Source of the DNA: Paramuribaculum sp.
Lineage (GTDB): Bacteria > Bacteroidota > Bacteroidia > Bacteroidales > Muribaculaceae
Assembly (NCBI GenBank): GCA_029060545.1
Contig: JAIDTT010000081.1
Location: forward strand, 1 to 47,656
DNA: 47,656 nt
Direction of reading: 5' to 3'
The notes below the pieces were generated by a model, which saw nothing but the letters and a program-made list of their open reading frames with translations, searched no databases and was not told the origin of the DNA. Position numbers and translations under genes: made by a program. Positions within the stretch are counted from its first letter, which is position 1. Each line of letters begins with the position of its first letter. Shown here piece by piece: positions 3,444 through 9,493 of this stretch.

Positions 3444-4073
3444 ATGATTCAACCTCACGCAAAGATAATAGGTATATCACGCCACCGTATAGTGACGGAT
3501 GGCGATGGTGTCACTACGCTTGTGGCTTTTCATGGGTGCCAGTTGCGTTGTCTTTACTGCCTGAATCCACAATCGATAGGTCCCGGACGACGTTTTAGAG
3601 ACTTCACACCTCAGACCCTGTACGATTTCGTAAAAGTAGACGAACTCTATTTTTTAGCAACAAATGGCGGGGTGACCTTTGGCGGTGGAGAGCCGGCGAT
3701 GCATCCCGATTTCATATGTCAGTTTCGTGATTTGTGCGGTGGATCATGGCATCTTACAATAGAAACGTCGCTCAATGTCCCGACAGAGAATATTAAGGCT
3801 CTGTTGCCTGTAGTGGATTCATGGATTATCGACATTAAAGACATGAATCCGGATATTTACCGACGTTATACCGGTAATGATAATTCGCTTGTGGAAAGCA
3901 ATCTACAATTGCTTGCAACGAGTGGACGCACGAAAGATTGCCTTATGCGTCTGCCTCGGATTCCTAAATTTAACTCCGGTTCGGATTGTGAAAAGAGCCG
4001 GGATAAGCTTTCAGAATTGGGATTCAATAATTTTGATATGTTTAATTATCAACTACACCATAACGCATTATGA
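3444..4073 (+). CDS. Small PflA-like radical SAM enzyme
   Basis: A 209-aa protein with the radical SAM cysteines C32-x3-C36-x2-C39 (CQLRCLYC) and a SAM-binding GGVTFGGGEP motif (75-84), as in pyruvate formate-lyase activating enzymes. The start TDGDGVTTLVAFHGC follows the activase pattern. There is no second ferredoxin-like cluster domain, and no glycyl radical enzyme is encoded in the window. The stop codon overlaps the next ATG (ATGA at 4070-4073), so the two products are probably made together, which makes the neighbour the obvious substrate or partner candidate. From memory, similar coupled pairs occur in other gut Bacteroides with no assigned function. The reaction catalysed is unknown. 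Confidence 0.85.
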   Translation: MIQPHAKIIGISRHRIVTDGDGVTTLVAFHGCQLRCLYCLNPQSIGPGRRFRDFTPQTLYDFVKVDELYFLATNGGVTFGGGEPAMHPDFICQFRDLCGGSWHLTIETSLNVPTENIKALLPVVDSWIIDIKDMNPDIYRRYTGNDNSLVESNLQLLATSGRTKDCLMRLPRIPKFNSGSDCEKSRDKLSELGFNNFDMFNYQLHHNAL

Positions 4074-4993
4074 AACGAGGTAAACGTGTCTGTAAGATCC
4101 TTAAGGAGATACGTAGGCAGATAGCCGAGGCTAATGATATCGACTTAATAACTTCCGAATGTCGCTTCAAAGGTGATTGCATGGGCACGTGTCCTAAATG
4201 CGAAGCCGAGTTAGAATATCTGGAGCAGCAGTTACTTGAACGACAACTTGCCGGAAAATTCGTTAATCTGGCCGGTATTTCGGCCGGTGCGGTTGCAATG
4301 CTGTCGCCTTTTGCCATACAATCGCAGACTCCGGCTGATATCCCAACGGATGATATTGCAGTACAGTCGGTGATCAACGCAGATACTATAAAAGGAGTAG
4401 TCTCGTATAGCTATACTTTTAATGGGTCAACCGACTGCGACAGAATGCCCGGCGCTAATGTTTTGAACCTTCGTACGGGTAATAATGTATGGACAGATGC
4501 CGACGGGGAATTTATGATAGAGGCCAATATAGGAGATTATTTGGAAATTTCGTGTCATGGTGCTATTACAGAGGTAATAGTTGTTTCTGACAATACACCA
4601 TTGGATATAATCTTAAATGAAGATGCAAGCATGTTGAGCGATGAGATTGTCATGTTGGGTGCTATCCAGGATCCGCGCGAAGAGAATACGCTTGCGTTGC
4701 GGATTATTGATGCTGGCGGTAATCTGATTCCGAACGAGAACCTTACGTTGGAGTACGTGTACACCTACGCAAATGGCGAGACCAAAACTGTAAGGCCTAG
4801 ACTGTGGGCGATACGTGGTGATGATGTGCTCATTGATACTCGCAAGGGCGTTGGCGCGGATGGAAATCCGCTGAAAAGAGAAGTTTTACGAATCTATGCC
4901 GAGGGCTACGCAAAACCTATCACCTTGAAAATCAATCCGACAAAATGCTTCACTCGTAAAACGGTAAAGTTTAAGTCGAAAAGGAAAAAATAG
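4070..4993 (+). CDS. Cysteine-motif membrane protein with carboxypeptidase-regulatory-like domain
   Basis: A 307-aa protein translationally coupled to the radical SAM gene. Residues 1-60 are charged, with C8 and then C31-x5-C37-x3-C41-x2-C44; the last three have the spacing of a radical SAM cluster motif. A helical stretch (about 45-62) and a hydrophobic segment (about 63-87, ending near SPFAIQSQ) follow, which could be a membrane anchor or an internal signal. Residues from about 100 to 190 resemble the carboxypeptidase-D regulatory fold that precedes SusC-type receptors (GVVSYS, PGANVLNLRTG, DADGEFMIEA). The rest is beta-rich with no clear family. Cysteines on the cytoplasmic side before the membrane segment would be reachable by the cytoplasmic radical SAM enzyme. 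Function unknown. Confidence 0.75.
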   Translation: MKRGKRVCKILKEIRRQIAEANDIDLITSECRFKGDCMGTCPKCEAELEYLEQQLLERQLAGKFVNLAGISAGAVAMLSPFAIQSQTPADIPTDDIAVQSVINADTIKGVVSYSYTFNGSTDCDRMPGANVLNLRTGNNVWTDADGEFMIEANIGDYLEISCHGAITEVIVVSDNTPLDIILNEDASMLSDEIVMLGAIQDPREENTLALRIIDAGGNLIPNENLTLEYVYTYANGETKTVRPRLWAIRGDDVLIDTRKGVGADGNPLKREVLRIYAEGYAKPITLKINPTKCFTRKTVKFKSKRKK

Positions 4994-5096: not shown

Positions 5097-6302
5097 ATGG
5101 CATCCATTAAAGTTAAGTTCAGACCTTCGAAGATTACGGATCGCGAAGGCTCAATCTATTATCAAATTATCCATGAGAGATGTGTGCGACACATCGCGTC
5201 GCGTTATCGCGTACTCCCGTCGGAGTGGTGCGATAGGCGAGCGACGGTCATTGCCGGTGCTACTACACCCGAGCGCGAACAGCATTTGCGTTCGATCCGC
5301 GAAGGGATACATTGCGATGTGGAGCGGCTGACTGTCATAATCCGCAAGTTCGACAGGAGTGGCAGGATTTATTCCATAGAAGATGTCGCCGAGGAGTTCA
5401 AGCGTTTTCGTGAGGAATATTCGCTCTTCAACTTTATGGAGCGGGTTATCGATAAGCTACGTGCCAACGGCAAAATACGCACATCCGAGACCTATACTGC
5501 TGCTCTAAGAAGTTTCCGGCATTTCAGGCAGGGGAGGGATATAATGCTCGACCGCCTCAGCACCGCCATAATGGAAGAATATGAGGCGTGGCACACCCGG
5601 CGTGGCATACAGCCCAATACCATATCATTCTACAACCGGATCCTGCGGGCCGTCTATAATCGGGCCGTCGAGGAGGAGGTTATCGAAAACCGATATCCAT
5701 TCCGTCATGTATATACGGGTGTCGACAAGACGGTGAAACGCGCGCTCCCGCTCTCGATAATAAGGAAAATCAACAACCTTGATCTGTCGGGAGTACCCGC
5801 CATGGCGTATGCCCGCGATATGTTTATGCTCAGTTTCATGCTGCGTGGGATGAGCTTCATCGATATGGCCTTTCTGCGAAAGTCAGATCTAAGAGGCGGC
5901 CGCCTGACCTATCGCCGGCGCAAGACCGGGCAGACACTTGTCGTGGCGTGGACCCCGGAAATGCAATGCATCGTTGACCGGTATCCACAAAACGCGATGG
6001 AGTATCTGCTGCCGATCATACGAAAGCCGGCTGAAAACCTCCATACCGTATACCGTAATATAGGCTACAACATCAATCACAATCTCCGAAAGATAGCCTA
6101 TGCAATAGGTCTCAGTGTGCCCTTCACTCTCTATGTAGCCCGACATAGCTGGGCATCAGTAGCCCGAGCCAAAGGAATACCGTTGAGCGTGATAAGCGAA
6201 GGTATGGGACACGATAGTGAAGCCACCACACAGATCTATCTCGCCAGCCTCGATGCCTCCGCCATCGACCGCGCCAATTCCCTCATCCTCCGCAGCCTTT
6301 AG
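5097..6302 (+). CDS. Tyrosine-type site-specific recombinase
   Basis: A 401-aa integrase of the Bacteroides phage-integrase-like type. It has an N-terminal arm-binding region (1-95), a SAM-like core-binding domain (about 105-210), and a catalytic domain with the first Arg in MLRGMSFIDM, a Lys in RRRKTGQ, the box VARHSWAS and the nucleophile Tyr in TQIYLASLD near the C terminus. The usual first His of the H-x-x-R box appears to be Tyr (LYVARH), as in many Bacteroides recombinases. It starts 103 bp after the preceding gene in the same direction. No att site, cargo junction or clear invertible promoter is visible nearby, so it could be a stranded integrase or a DNA invertase. The ATG follows an A/T-rich region without SD. 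Confidence 0.9.
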   Translation: MASIKVKFRPSKITDREGSIYYQIIHERCVRHIASRYRVLPSEWCDRRATVIAGATTPEREQHLRSIREGIHCDVERLTVIIRKFDRSGRIYSIEDVAEEFKRFREEYSLFNFMERVIDKLRANGKIRTSETYTAALRSFRHFRQGRDIMLDRLSTAIMEEYEAWHTRRGIQPNTISFYNRILRAVYNRAVEEEVIENRYPFRHVYTGVDKTVKRALPLSIIRKINNLDLSGVPAMAYARDMFMLSFMLRGMSFIDMAFLRKSDLRGGRLTYRRRKTGQTLVVAWTPEMQCIVDRYPQNAMEYLLPIIRKPAENLHTVYRNIGYNINHNLRKIAYAIGLSVPFTLYVARHSWASVARAKGIPLSVISEGMGHDSEATTQIYLASLDASAIDRANSLILRSL

Positions 6303-6315
6303 GTGGAGGGATGGG

Positions 6316-8433
6316 TTAGATCCAGTCGTTCCAGTGGTCGCACAGCGAGCGGACCATGTGGCCGATGGCGGTGTGGGGGTAGCGTTTGGTTATAGTCTTC
6401 AGATTGCCGAGGATGTACTGGGCTTTTGCACGAGCTTCATCGGTAGTCAGCATTGCCAGTGCTGCCTCCACTTCCTGATTGTATATCGCTTCGGTATGCT
6501 TATGACCCGTCGATGTGTTATAATCATAAAGAAATGCATATTTGCGCTTGGCAAAATCGTCGTCCCAGTCGTAACGGAGGTTAGGCGAGAATTTGCCGGG
6601 TATCACTCCTCTCCAATACTGTGTGAGTGCCCAGCACTCCTCAAATGAGTTGAAGCGGCCGATGGCGTACATCAAGCGTGCCATACCGCGATCGTCGGCC
6701 GTTTTGCCGCTTCGCATATCTTTCTGATAATCCAGCATCCGGCGTGCGAATGTGAGTTTGGCATTCTCCGACGATAGAGTTGGTTTTGCGCCGGCGGCAA
6801 ATTCATACTCCCATTCGTCATCTACCCTCCAGCGGCTCGGATAAATGACGAATGGCTCATATTGTAAATATCTGTATATATTCATAGTACGCAGGTATTC
6901 CGGGCTGACATCGGAGAGGTATAGCACTGCGCGAGCGTAGTTGCCTTCGCGCAGTGCTAACGTGCCGATTAATTCATAGTAATAGTCGGAGTCAGTACGG
7001 ATAGTATTGTGCAGGAAGTCGTTGAGCGGAGTCGATTTCATCATGCTGCTGTGGGCGGCGGCAAGTTGCGAGGAGTTGAGGCTGCCCATAAGTTGAAATG
7101 CCAGACCGCCATAATCCGTGGTGTTGCGTTTGTGCTCGATGGCCTTAAGCCAGTCGCTTGGTAATAGCAGACGCAGAAAGTCCATTATATTCCAGTTACA
7201 GCAGATATCTCCTTCCATAGCCAAAGGTTCTGGAGCCATGTTATCGGCATAGGCGCAGAGTGCAATAGCTGCGGCGTAGTCACCTTTTTTCCACAACTCC
7301 GGTACCCAATCCGCGTAGATTATGTTGCGTAACCGGCGTGTCCATTCTTGGGCATGAGGAGTATCAGGGTCGGCGGTGCATTTATCCTCGATCCATTGTA
7401 GATCACAGACCAGCGACCCGATTCGTCCGGAGTGAGCGTCAAGTTTCATCTTGTAGGCGTGGGCGAGGTCGGCGAGCTCCTCACATGAAAATCTTTGCTT
7501 CAATGCCCGCTGCATATAGCGGTCGGCAAGCCGGGTGTTGTGGCCGTATTCATTGTAATAGTAGGCAAGCAGATAGAGCCAGTCGCCACGGCCCGTGGTT
7601 TTCTTTCGCCGAACCATCTTTTGTGCAATCGGAACGATTTCGATGAGTTTGGCCGAGTCAGTGCAGTTGTGGCGTATATATTCCATAATCTGAGGCGCGT
7701 CGGGATTGAGTGTTGCCGTCAGAGCTACCGGATTGTCTGCTTTGATCGACCCGATGGCTCCGGCTTTGGCAAAGAGTGAATCGGCACGCCCTACTTCGCC
7801 GAGACGGCTCCAGCATCCGGCTACATATTTCGATGCCATACGTTTGAGCAGGTTGGAATCGGAAACGAGTGCAAATGCCGAATCGTAGTAGTTGATACAC
7901 TCCGAGTATGCGCGAGAGGCAAACATCGCTCTCACCGCTTGAAATGCGTAGCGGTCGCGGAGGCGCTCCCCGCTGTAGGCTTTGCAGCAGGCTATCTCTG
8001 CGTTGTATTCGCCGGTGGTGCTATGACCGTCTCTATTACGTGGAAAGTACCACGGCGATTTGGTTGATGCCCACTTCTCCTCGATAGCTTTGGCTACACA
8101 CATAAAATCGGCGATTTCATCGTCGCCATTATTATTAAGGTACGCGAAAAATGGATTTTCGCAATATGAGTAACTGCCGTTGACATAATTATTCCAGTCA
8201 CTGAGTGTGCTTGAATACACGGCTTCATTGATAGCGTCCAAGTCCATATCCTTGTATGTGACGGATTGCCATAGCCGAAGATTTTCCTCTCTATCGAAGT
8301 CGGTAGTGACATTGGTATTGAAGAATTCGGGTGTTGGGATGATAGGGAAGTATGGGCCGCAGGCGACGGCGCGATCAGCTACGGTGCTCAGGAGCACACT
8401 AATGGTCAGCAGAAAGAATATTCGAGATCTCAT
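6316..8433 (-). CDS. Large exported protein of unknown function, helical-repeat-like
   Basis: A 705-aa protein with an N-terminal signal peptide (hydrophobic core about 5-20, then AVACGPYF; the Cys could be a weak lipobox). The mature protein is rich in Trp, Tyr and Ala and has helical pairs that resemble TPR-like repeats (for example AGCWSRLGEVGRADSLFAKAG and LRKGNYARAV-like segments). The C-terminal third is compositionally well ordered and ends CDHWNDWI. I do not recognise a catalytic motif. It overlaps the upstream lipoprotein gene by 35 bp, so both come from one transcript that starts at the LytTR-site promoter near 9.5 kb. Probably periplasmic or outer-membrane-attached. It ends convergently with the integrase, 13 bp apart. 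Confidence 0.75.
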   Translation of the reverse strand: MRSRIFFLLTISVLLSTVADRAVACGPYFPIIPTPEFFNTNVTTDFDREENLRLWQSVTYKDMDLDAINEAVYSSTLSDWNNYVNGSYSYCENPFFAYLNNNGDDEIADFMCVAKAIEEKWASTKSPWYFPRNRDGHSTTGEYNAEIACCKAYSGERLRDRYAFQAVRAMFASRAYSECINYYDSAFALVSDSNLLKRMASKYVAGCWSRLGEVGRADSLFAKAGAIGSIKADNPVALTATLNPDAPQIMEYIRHNCTDSAKLIEIVPIAQKMVRRKKTTGRGDWLYLLAYYYNEYGHNTRLADRYMQRALKQRFSCEELADLAHAYKMKLDAHSGRIGSLVCDLQWIEDKCTADPDTPHAQEWTRRLRNIIYADWVPELWKKGDYAAAIALCAYADNMAPEPLAMEGDICCNWNIMDFLRLLLPSDWLKAIEHKRNTTDYGGLAFQLMGSLNSSQLAAAHSSMMKSTPLNDFLHNTIRTDSDYYYELIGTLALREGNYARAVLYLSDVSPEYLRTMNIYRYLQYEPFVIYPSRWRVDDEWEYEFAAGAKPTLSSENAKLTFARRMLDYQKDMRSGKTADDRGMARLMYAIGRFNSFEECWALTQYWRGVIPGKFSPNLRYDWDDDFAKRKYAFLYDYNTSTGHKHTEAIYNQEVEAALAMLTTDEARAKAQYILGNLKTITKRYPHTAIGHMVRSLCDHWNDWI

Positions 8434-9469
8434 CGGGCGTATAATTTGAAAGATTGCTTGTATCGAGGTGATAGAGTATGTTGGAATGAGGCTTGTCGGC
8501 GAGCCGTCGGTCGATCATCTCCTTTACGCGGATGATGTCGGTGTAGTCGGCTACTTCGGAGCGAATCATATCACCGGGCCAAATTATGATGTCGTTGTAC
8601 TGAATTTCATCCGTGGCAATATACCTGTTGGTGTGGCGGTACGAAAATCTGGTGGTGTCGGTAAGATCGAGGCCATTGAGCAGGCCGACGAACTGCCGCT
8701 GGCGGAAAAGCAGTTGCCAGTTATAAGTGGGGTAGGCTACGTCGAGGTGGATAGGATAGTCGGCAAGATGCTTGAGATACGGCTCCACATCGCGCACATC
8801 GATAATGGAATTATTGGTGTCGGGATCATTGAAACTGCCGGTGTTGTAGACCATGAGTACTCCGCGATCGACTGGAGGCACCTGACCCGACAGTTGATGC
8901 AGGCGTATGGTGGAACTTAGGCACCAGGGGAGTTGCTTACCGGCAATTACGGATTTTACCGAATCGCACAGGCGGAAATAGGACTGCTGAGTCGACGAAG
9001 TCCAGTCGCAATCAATCTGCAATTCAGCTACGTTGGGTATCCGGTAGTAGGAGCACATATTGCTTACACGGCTCACTATGTTGTTGGCCAGCATACCCTC
9101 ATTGTCGCTCATTGCTTTAAGGGCTTCCAGTGTGATATAGACCACGGGTACAAACTCGGTAGAGGCCAACGTATCAGCGAATAGAGCCACGGTGGCGTCG
9201 TCGATCTGCACCGAAGCATTAGGGTAAGTGGCATCTTCGGGGTGGTAGGCGTAGGGTTCCTGAGCCACATCGAACATCCGCAGATAGATGCGTCCGATGT
9301 TGTGACTGGCGAGAAATGCGAGGTCGATACTGTCGGGACTAAATACAGTCTTCCAATAGTAGACCGAATTCATTTCCTCGTGGGCAGGGCTTAGGGCCTC
9401 GGTCGAGGCAGCGCGGTCGCAGCATGAGTGGATGAACAGAAGCAGACAAGCGGAGATCAGATACTTCAT
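8399..9469 (-). CDS. Lipoprotein with TIM-barrel-like (DUF3142-like) domain
   Basis: A 356-aa protein with a lipoprotein signal (LLLFIHSCC, cysteines 16/17). The mature part has alternating strands and helices such as NIGRIYLRMFDVA, VPVVYITLEAL, VAELQIDCDWT, LPWCLSSTIR and GVLMVYNTG. These read like the successive beta strands of a TIM barrel with acidic residues at strand ends, similar to DUF3142 proteins that resemble glycoside hydrolases. The family match is inferred from pattern only. It is the first gene of a two-gene unit with the 705-aa exported protein (35-bp overlap). Its promoter carries the direct repeat described at 9536-9574, so it is a likely target of the LytTR regulator encoded 1 kb upstream. 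Confidence 0.7.
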   Translation of the reverse strand: MKYLISACLLLFIHSCCDRAASTEALSPAHEEMNSVYYWKTVFSPDSIDLAFLASHNIGRIYLRMFDVAQEPYAYHPEDATYPNASVQIDDATVALFADTLASTEFVPVVYITLEALKAMSDNEGMLANNIVSRVSNMCSYYRIPNVAELQIDCDWTSSTQQSYFRLCDSVKSVIAGKQLPWCLSSTIRLHQLSGQVPPVDRGVLMVYNTGSFNDPDTNNSIIDVRDVEPYLKHLADYPIHLDVAYPTYNWQLLFRQRQFVGLLNGLDLTDTTRFSYRHTNRYIATDEIQYNDIIIWPGDMIRSEVADYTDIIRVKEMIDRRLADKPHSNILYHLDTSNLSNYTPDEISNILSADH

Positions 9470-9493
9470 AATCGTGATTGGTTATAGTCGCTG

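Follow-up and report, generated by a model that had tools for sequence, protein, structure and literature searches.

A PflA-like radical SAM enzyme paired with a cysteine-rich domain in gut Bacteroidales: a candidate protein-modification system

The stretch of DNA that was analysed (the window; 47,656 nucleotides of Paramuribaculum sp., contig JAIDTT010000081.1) carries a gene pair that is one example of a system widespread in Bacteroidales and also met with in a few Clostridia. The pair consists of a PflA-like radical SAM enzyme of 209 residues (3444..4073, plus strand) and a partner protein of 307 residues (4070..4993, plus strand); the features of both proteins given below are on the same strand. 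With moderate confidence the system is read here as one dedicated to protein modification, in which a Cys-rich domain would serve for docking and the enzyme would modify the glycines of a short motif before export. The N-terminal Cys domain would act as a leader-like recognition domain that brings diverse clients to one enzyme in the cytoplasm, and the PflA-like enzyme would abstract the alpha-hydrogen from glycines of a repeated phi-x-G-[E/D]-phi motif in flexible linkers or tails. The modified client would then be exported by Sec, the Cys domain and the signal peptide being removed together by signal peptidase I or II.

The two open reading frames overlap by ATGA (4070..4073), a start/stop overlap of the kind read as translational coupling, as had been noted in a preliminary description of this DNA. 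The pair is flanked by a minus-strand gene (941-2974) that appears rho-like from its translation and by a plus-strand tyrosine recombinase gene (5097-6302; Phage_int_SAM_5, Arm-DNA-bind_5) that starts about 100 bases downstream. The adjoining recombinase and the patchy presence of the pair within the genus suggest that the pair arrived horizontally. The host genome (2.1 Mb in 109 contigs, 98.6% complete) yielded the window partner as its sole Cys protein.

The window enzyme contains the sequences CQLRCLYC (C-x3-C-x2-C) and FGGGEP. Its cluster site, C32-x3-C36-x2-C39, is followed by N41 (3537..3566), the equivalent of Asn38 of PFL-activase, and a DGxG motif is formed by D19 to G22 (3498..3509), D19 being the equivalent of Asp16. 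The cysteine motif and GGE were found in 113 of 115 system enzymes, the other two being truncated, and the Asp16 and Asn38 equivalents were both kept in all 115. In PFL-activase these two residues anchor the target glycine (PMC9326890). When scored against curated models, the window enzyme reached 125 bits for TIGR02494 (cut-off 174, NCBIfam) and 88 bits for PFLA (cut-off 232), and matched Radical_SAM (Pfam) below the curated cut-off; its relatives likewise scored below the curated GRE-activase (glycyl radical enzyme activase) cut-offs. The top match among solved folds was 3cb8 (TM 0.73 by target length), PFL-activase with a bound glycine peptide. Because of this fold match and the kept Asp16 and Asn38 equivalents, glycine is the candidate target of the enzyme. 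The system enzymes share with PFL-activase and other GRE activases the radical SAM core, the CxxxCxxC-x-N site, the DGxG loop and a D-x-K strand. They differ from these activases in the missing ferredoxin insert, in the C-terminal end, which is shortened, and in the replacement of Asp104 by Glu and of Arg21 by Thr; at the Arg21 position of DGxGxR, the loop motif of the activase, Thr was found in 111 of the 115 and Arg in none.

Since its best matches, by profile as well as by fold, are to GRE activases, the enzyme might be an ordinary member of that family with the partner as a bystander, but we regard this as very improbable, and for PFL-type targets it is largely refuted. Neither PF02901 nor PF01228 had a match anywhere in the window's genome, so that the lack of a glycyl radical enzyme, first noted for the window, extends for the PFL type to the whole genome. 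PF02901 (the PFL-type enzyme) was likewise absent from 65 of the 66 enzyme-bearing genomes; a dedicated glycyl radical enzyme elsewhere in the genome, which the preliminary description had named as a possible true substrate, was rejected for the PFL type on these grounds. In 247 genomes from the family to which the window belongs, scores for the enzyme ran from 168 to 492 bits (66 genomes) and, after a gap, fell below 80 bits in four genomes, each of which holds a PFL-type enzyme with its own ordinary activase adjoining. The system enzyme is thus distinct from GRE activases (PFLA, TIGR02494) in having no PFL-type partner and in being tied genetically to the Cys domain, with which it co-occurs and to which it is sometimes fused.

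Distribution was examined in the same 247 genomes, with the N-terminal 95 residues of the partner as query. The Cys domain was found in 65 of them, in one to six copies each. Both genes were present in 61 genomes and neither in 177; a further 4 had the Cys domain without the enzyme and 5 the enzyme without the Cys domain (Fisher p about 1e-46), and several of the single-gene exceptions were contig ends or truncated or decayed genes (G248, G356, G416, G401, G286, G247). Pairing is therefore near-strict, and the frequent solo occurrence that the preliminary description had weighed against its proposal was not found. The genes also lie together: 78 of 113 unfused enzymes directly abut a Cys gene, and for 104 of the 113 a Cys gene is found on the same strand within 2.5 kb. 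Distance matrices of enzymes and neighbouring Cys domains were correlated (r 0.76, 0/2000 permutations), a result that a partnership would give but that joint inheritance would give as well. Natural fusions of enzyme and Cys domain were found in two ORFs, one enzyme-Cys (L077) and one enzyme-Cys-HIRAN (L095). As both genes recur together in many genomes, the pair is not there by chance. Genomes with a single enzyme may carry up to six Cys proteins spread over several contigs; in one of them (G330) one enzyme gene accompanies five Cys proteins on four contigs.

At least 338 relatives were recovered in a genome-wide contig scan; a separate scan with the full-length window partner as query gave no match. 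Their hosts include Bacteroides xylanisolvens, B. faecis, B. cellulosilyticus, B. ihuae, Butyricimonas, Prevotellaceae and Duncaniella muris, in keeping with the statement in the preliminary description that similar pairs occur in other gut Bacteroidales. Three loci named Clostridia carry the module (L181, L191, L193), and Gram-positive-type genes, e.g. for a SpoIID-like protein, were read beside two Clostridia loci. In 395 phylum-wide genomes, matches were found in two Bacteroidales only. An intact module is present on a Segatella copri plasmid record, where the enzyme is annotated as 'radical SAM protein' and two clients as 'energy transducer TonB'. No conserved third gene was found across the loci; the recurrent neighbours are two large genes resembling addA and addB, which encode DNA-repair helicase/nucleases, and these adjoin or flank the enzyme-client pair in 11-14 loci, including the Bacteroides-type L138, L142 and L166. 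A phage origin was rejected, as none of 419 pattern matches in viral contigs was confirmed; matches in two further 'phage' records, which are of 7-10 kb and unannotated, carry no weight either way. A defence system was also rejected, the PADLOC matches being explained by HIRAN, DUF3800 and general likeness to radical SAM proteins.

The Cys domain comprises residues 1-64 of the partner (4070..4261) and contains C8, C31, C37, G39, C41, C44 and E45; the cysteines are at the positions first reported. Their near-invariance, called for as a check in the preliminary description, was borne out in about 223 domains: C8 was kept in 222/222, C31 in 223/223, C37 in 221/223, G39 in 222/223, C41 in 222/223 and C44 in 223/223. 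In a model of the L077 fusion (pLDDT 89, pTM 0.85) the domain forms two helices flanking a Cys loop. The last three cysteines do have the C-x3-C-x2-C spacing that had been likened to a radical SAM site, but the likeness appears coincidental in view of this two-helix model and of the x4-x4-x2 spacing in one natural fusion. A remote homology search with the domain against solved structures, Fe-S proteins among them, gave nothing significant.

The five invariant cysteines might hold an Fe-S cluster or zinc, in which case the domain could provide the enzyme in trans with electrons or with an auxiliary cluster, much as a SPASM/twitch or ferredoxin domain would if moved to another protein. The closest activase relatives have a ferredoxin insert that is missing from the enzyme, and the natural C-terminal fusions place the Cys domain where auxiliary domains sit. 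However, up to six dispersed Cys proteins with diverse passengers per enzyme suit clients better, the cysteines number only five, and no relation to solved Fe-S proteins is detectable; we consider such a role improbable, and it would not exclude a docking role. The Cys domain resembles SPASM/twitch in being Cys-rich and, in the two natural fusions, C-terminal to the radical SAM core. It differs in its five cysteines and their spacing, in being mostly a separate protein and in occurring in several copies per enzyme; the seven or eight cysteines on the enzyme's own polypeptide that mark SPASM/twitch were not found.

In the docking reading, the domain behaves like a recognition tag, since it is carried by many different proteins that are served by one enzyme. 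Among 224 Cys ORFs, 118 matched TonB_C, 56 a carboxypeptidase-regulatory model and 4 both, and 43 ORFs matching neither were of 200 residues or fewer. Clients are mostly of 120-450 residues, the majority falling between 200 and 450, with 34 short ones of 115-200 residues. The window partner has, after the Cys domain and a signal-peptide-like segment, a CarbopepD_reg_2-like domain (residues 125-194; 4442..4651), matched below the Pfam gathering score and in agreement with the carboxypeptidase-regulatory-like domain described before, and then an unassigned C-terminal domain. Several clients are of other kinds. One is a cytosolic bacterial serpin fused to the Cys domain and a HIRAN domain, with no signal peptide (L091, 4936-6765), and three are stand-alone Cys domains of 79-88 residues (L092-L094). 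At L092 the stand-alone domain is adjoined by a 1250-residue Sel1/LRR_5 repeat protein (5721-9473) and a DUF3800 protein (3744-4856; PADLOC PDC-S51), and a relaxase-like gene lies close by; the locus may represent a mobile form of the module that carries other cargo. At L068, the Cys domain of a TonB_C-like protein (4036-4533) is reduced to its first 26 residues, and the protein has lost its Cys loop as well as the glycine motif.

A hydrophobic segment lies C-terminal to the Cys domain in 207 of 211 Cys proteins (about 98%). Of these, 110 have a lipobox, others ending e.g. in APAMAQ or ISTEAQ, the lipobox and signal segments having been called by regular expression and hydrophobicity rather than by a dedicated signal-peptide predictor. 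In the window partner the segment KFVNLAGISAGAVAMLSPFAIQSQ (4256..4327; about residues 63-83) was compared with those of relatives; as theirs end in AxA-Q or a lipobox, a signal peptide is the most likely reading. The partner, first described as a membrane protein, is thus probably exported rather than integral to the membrane. From its position ahead of the signal peptide, the Cys domain should be lost on maturation by cleavage.

What the clients would keep is a short glycine motif, [LIVMFTKE]-x-G-[ED]-[IVLMP] (phi-x-G-[E/D]-phi; e.g. LEGDV, LQGEP, KEGEI, LMGDI), located in the linkers and tails that follow the signal peptide. In the linkers of 83 dereplicated Cys-lipoproteins, which are acidic and related and in part still share ancestry after dereplication, 127 motifs were counted against 15.2 +/- 3.8 in shuffled sequences, and 70 of the 83 proteins had at least one against 13.7 expected. 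With the background measured on the retrieved loci only, 74 control lipoproteins of the same loci without a Cys domain had 21 motifs against 26 +/- 4.6 shuffled, i.e. no enrichment. TonB_C proteins with a Cys domain had 97 motifs against 12.7 by shuffling; ten without it had none, a sample too small for much weight. At the end of the carboxypeptidase-type domain, LxG[ED][VIL] was found in 21/37 proteins with a Cys domain and in 0/7 without. The motif is also carried by the cytosolic clients (L091, L113, L095) and is densest in the Clostridial ones (L191, L193, L181), at about five per 164-191 residues. No linker residue is better conserved than the motif glycine, which was identical in 74% of 628 comparisons that are not mutually independent, against 47% for other glycines and 24-41% for most other residues. 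Enzyme and motif are tied to each other by statistical association only, and the motif glycines are the putative site of the enzyme's action. The radical site of glycyl radical enzymes is RVxGY, which resembles phi-x-G-[E/D]-phi in being hydrophobic at the second position before the glycine. In an AlphaFold model of L095 residues 1-345 (enzyme, Cys domain and motif linker) the motif was disordered (pLDDT <50) and no docking was seen.

The motifs might instead be TonB-box-like or outer-membrane sorting peptides to which the enzyme is unrelated. The 118 Cys ORFs that match TonB_C agree with this, as does the carboxypeptidase-type motif, which sits at the position of the SusC-family LDEVVVVG stretch, a TonB-box-like element. 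But motifs are present in L091, L113 and L095, which have neither a signal peptide nor a TonB domain, they are densest in Clostridia, and the ten TonB_C proteins without a Cys domain have none; a sorting function of this kind is accordingly rated as quite improbable.

The Cys domain might also be the substrate itself, modified in its loop (e.g. at G39 or a cysteine), with tail motifs serving for sorting or proteolysis. Conservation is highest in the loop, where a G-[D/E]-C element recalls the motif of the tails, and no motif was found in the stand-alone Cys proteins (L092-L094) or in the L077 fusion. Against this, in nearly all clients the domain would be cut off with the signal peptide and a lasting mark lost, and the specificity of the motif to Cys-domain proteins, cytosolic ones included, is left unexplained. 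We hold this to be unlikely, though deserving some weight. In the window partner the loop holds such a [KEQ]-G-[DE]-C element (residues 33-37; 4166-4180), which is perhaps mimicry or a second site. The preliminary description had allowed only for an Fe-S cluster or a modification site at the N terminus. A cluster in the Cys domain may still exist, but the data agree better with an N terminus that serves for docking or as a leader and with modification farther downstream, because the domain would be removed on export, each enzyme has many passengers, and these have an enriched glycine motif of their own.

The window partner has no canonical motif. At the site of LxG[ED][VIL] in 21/37 dereplicated carboxypeptidase-type relatives it has ASMLSDEIVMLGAI (4625..4666), and it has MLSDEIVMLGAI where its relative L068 has LLGDVVFVGAM. 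As it is motif-free and the only Cys protein of its genome, the window copy may be degenerate or may be modified elsewhere. This partner, the other clients without a motif (the stand-alone Cys proteins, the L077 fusion and about 16% of Cys-lipoproteins), the disordered motif in the L095 model and the Thr in place of Arg21 all count against the docking reading.

Several known systems were compared. As in radical-SAM RiPPs, the N-terminal part is conserved, the C-terminal parts vary and carry short motifs in several copies, and a dedicated neighbouring radical SAM enzyme serves several precursors or clients; the RiPP-like combination of conserved leader and variable part with a recurring motif was found in the system, the window partner being without the motif. 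In contrast to the short precursor peptides of RiPPs, the clients here are mostly of 120-450 residues with Sec (lipo)signal peptides, and no PqqD-type recognition element, SPASM domain or C39-peptidase transporter was recognised. The sections considered of a survey of Bacteroidales RiPP clusters treat clusters of other kinds and do not describe this system (PMC10352776). The families TIGR04133/TIGR04134 were also considered; these are rSAM/lipoprotein pairs of Bacteroidetes, and they too have a radical SAM enzyme adjoining a lipoprotein. Neither model was among the NCBIfam matches listed for the proteins scanned. Scans of Pfam, NCBIfam, PADLOC and PHROGs gave no curated family for the Cys domain or the enzyme subfamily, and no description of the pair was found in the open-licence literature. 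The findings as a whole point to a protein-modification system that appears to be undescribed. More tentatively, a relative of the GRE activases may have been repurposed, in gut Bacteroidales and some Clostridia, for alpha-carbon modification of glycines in exported lipoproteins, with a disposable Cys-rich docking tag that precedes the Sec signal, which would set it apart from both GRE activation and RiPP maturation as they are known. The product at the alpha-carbon would possibly be a stable glycyl-derived radical, a crosslink or a cleavage.

What was an orphan gene pair can in this way be described as a defined system, which has a proposed recognition domain, many natural clients and a predicted site of modification and which occurs in common bacteria of the gut, among them Bacteroides, Prevotellaceae and Muribaculaceae. 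If the proposal is true, the GRE-activase family would have a second line of work, and lipoproteins of gut bacteria would carry a radical-made modification so far unseen, which standard proteomics could miss.
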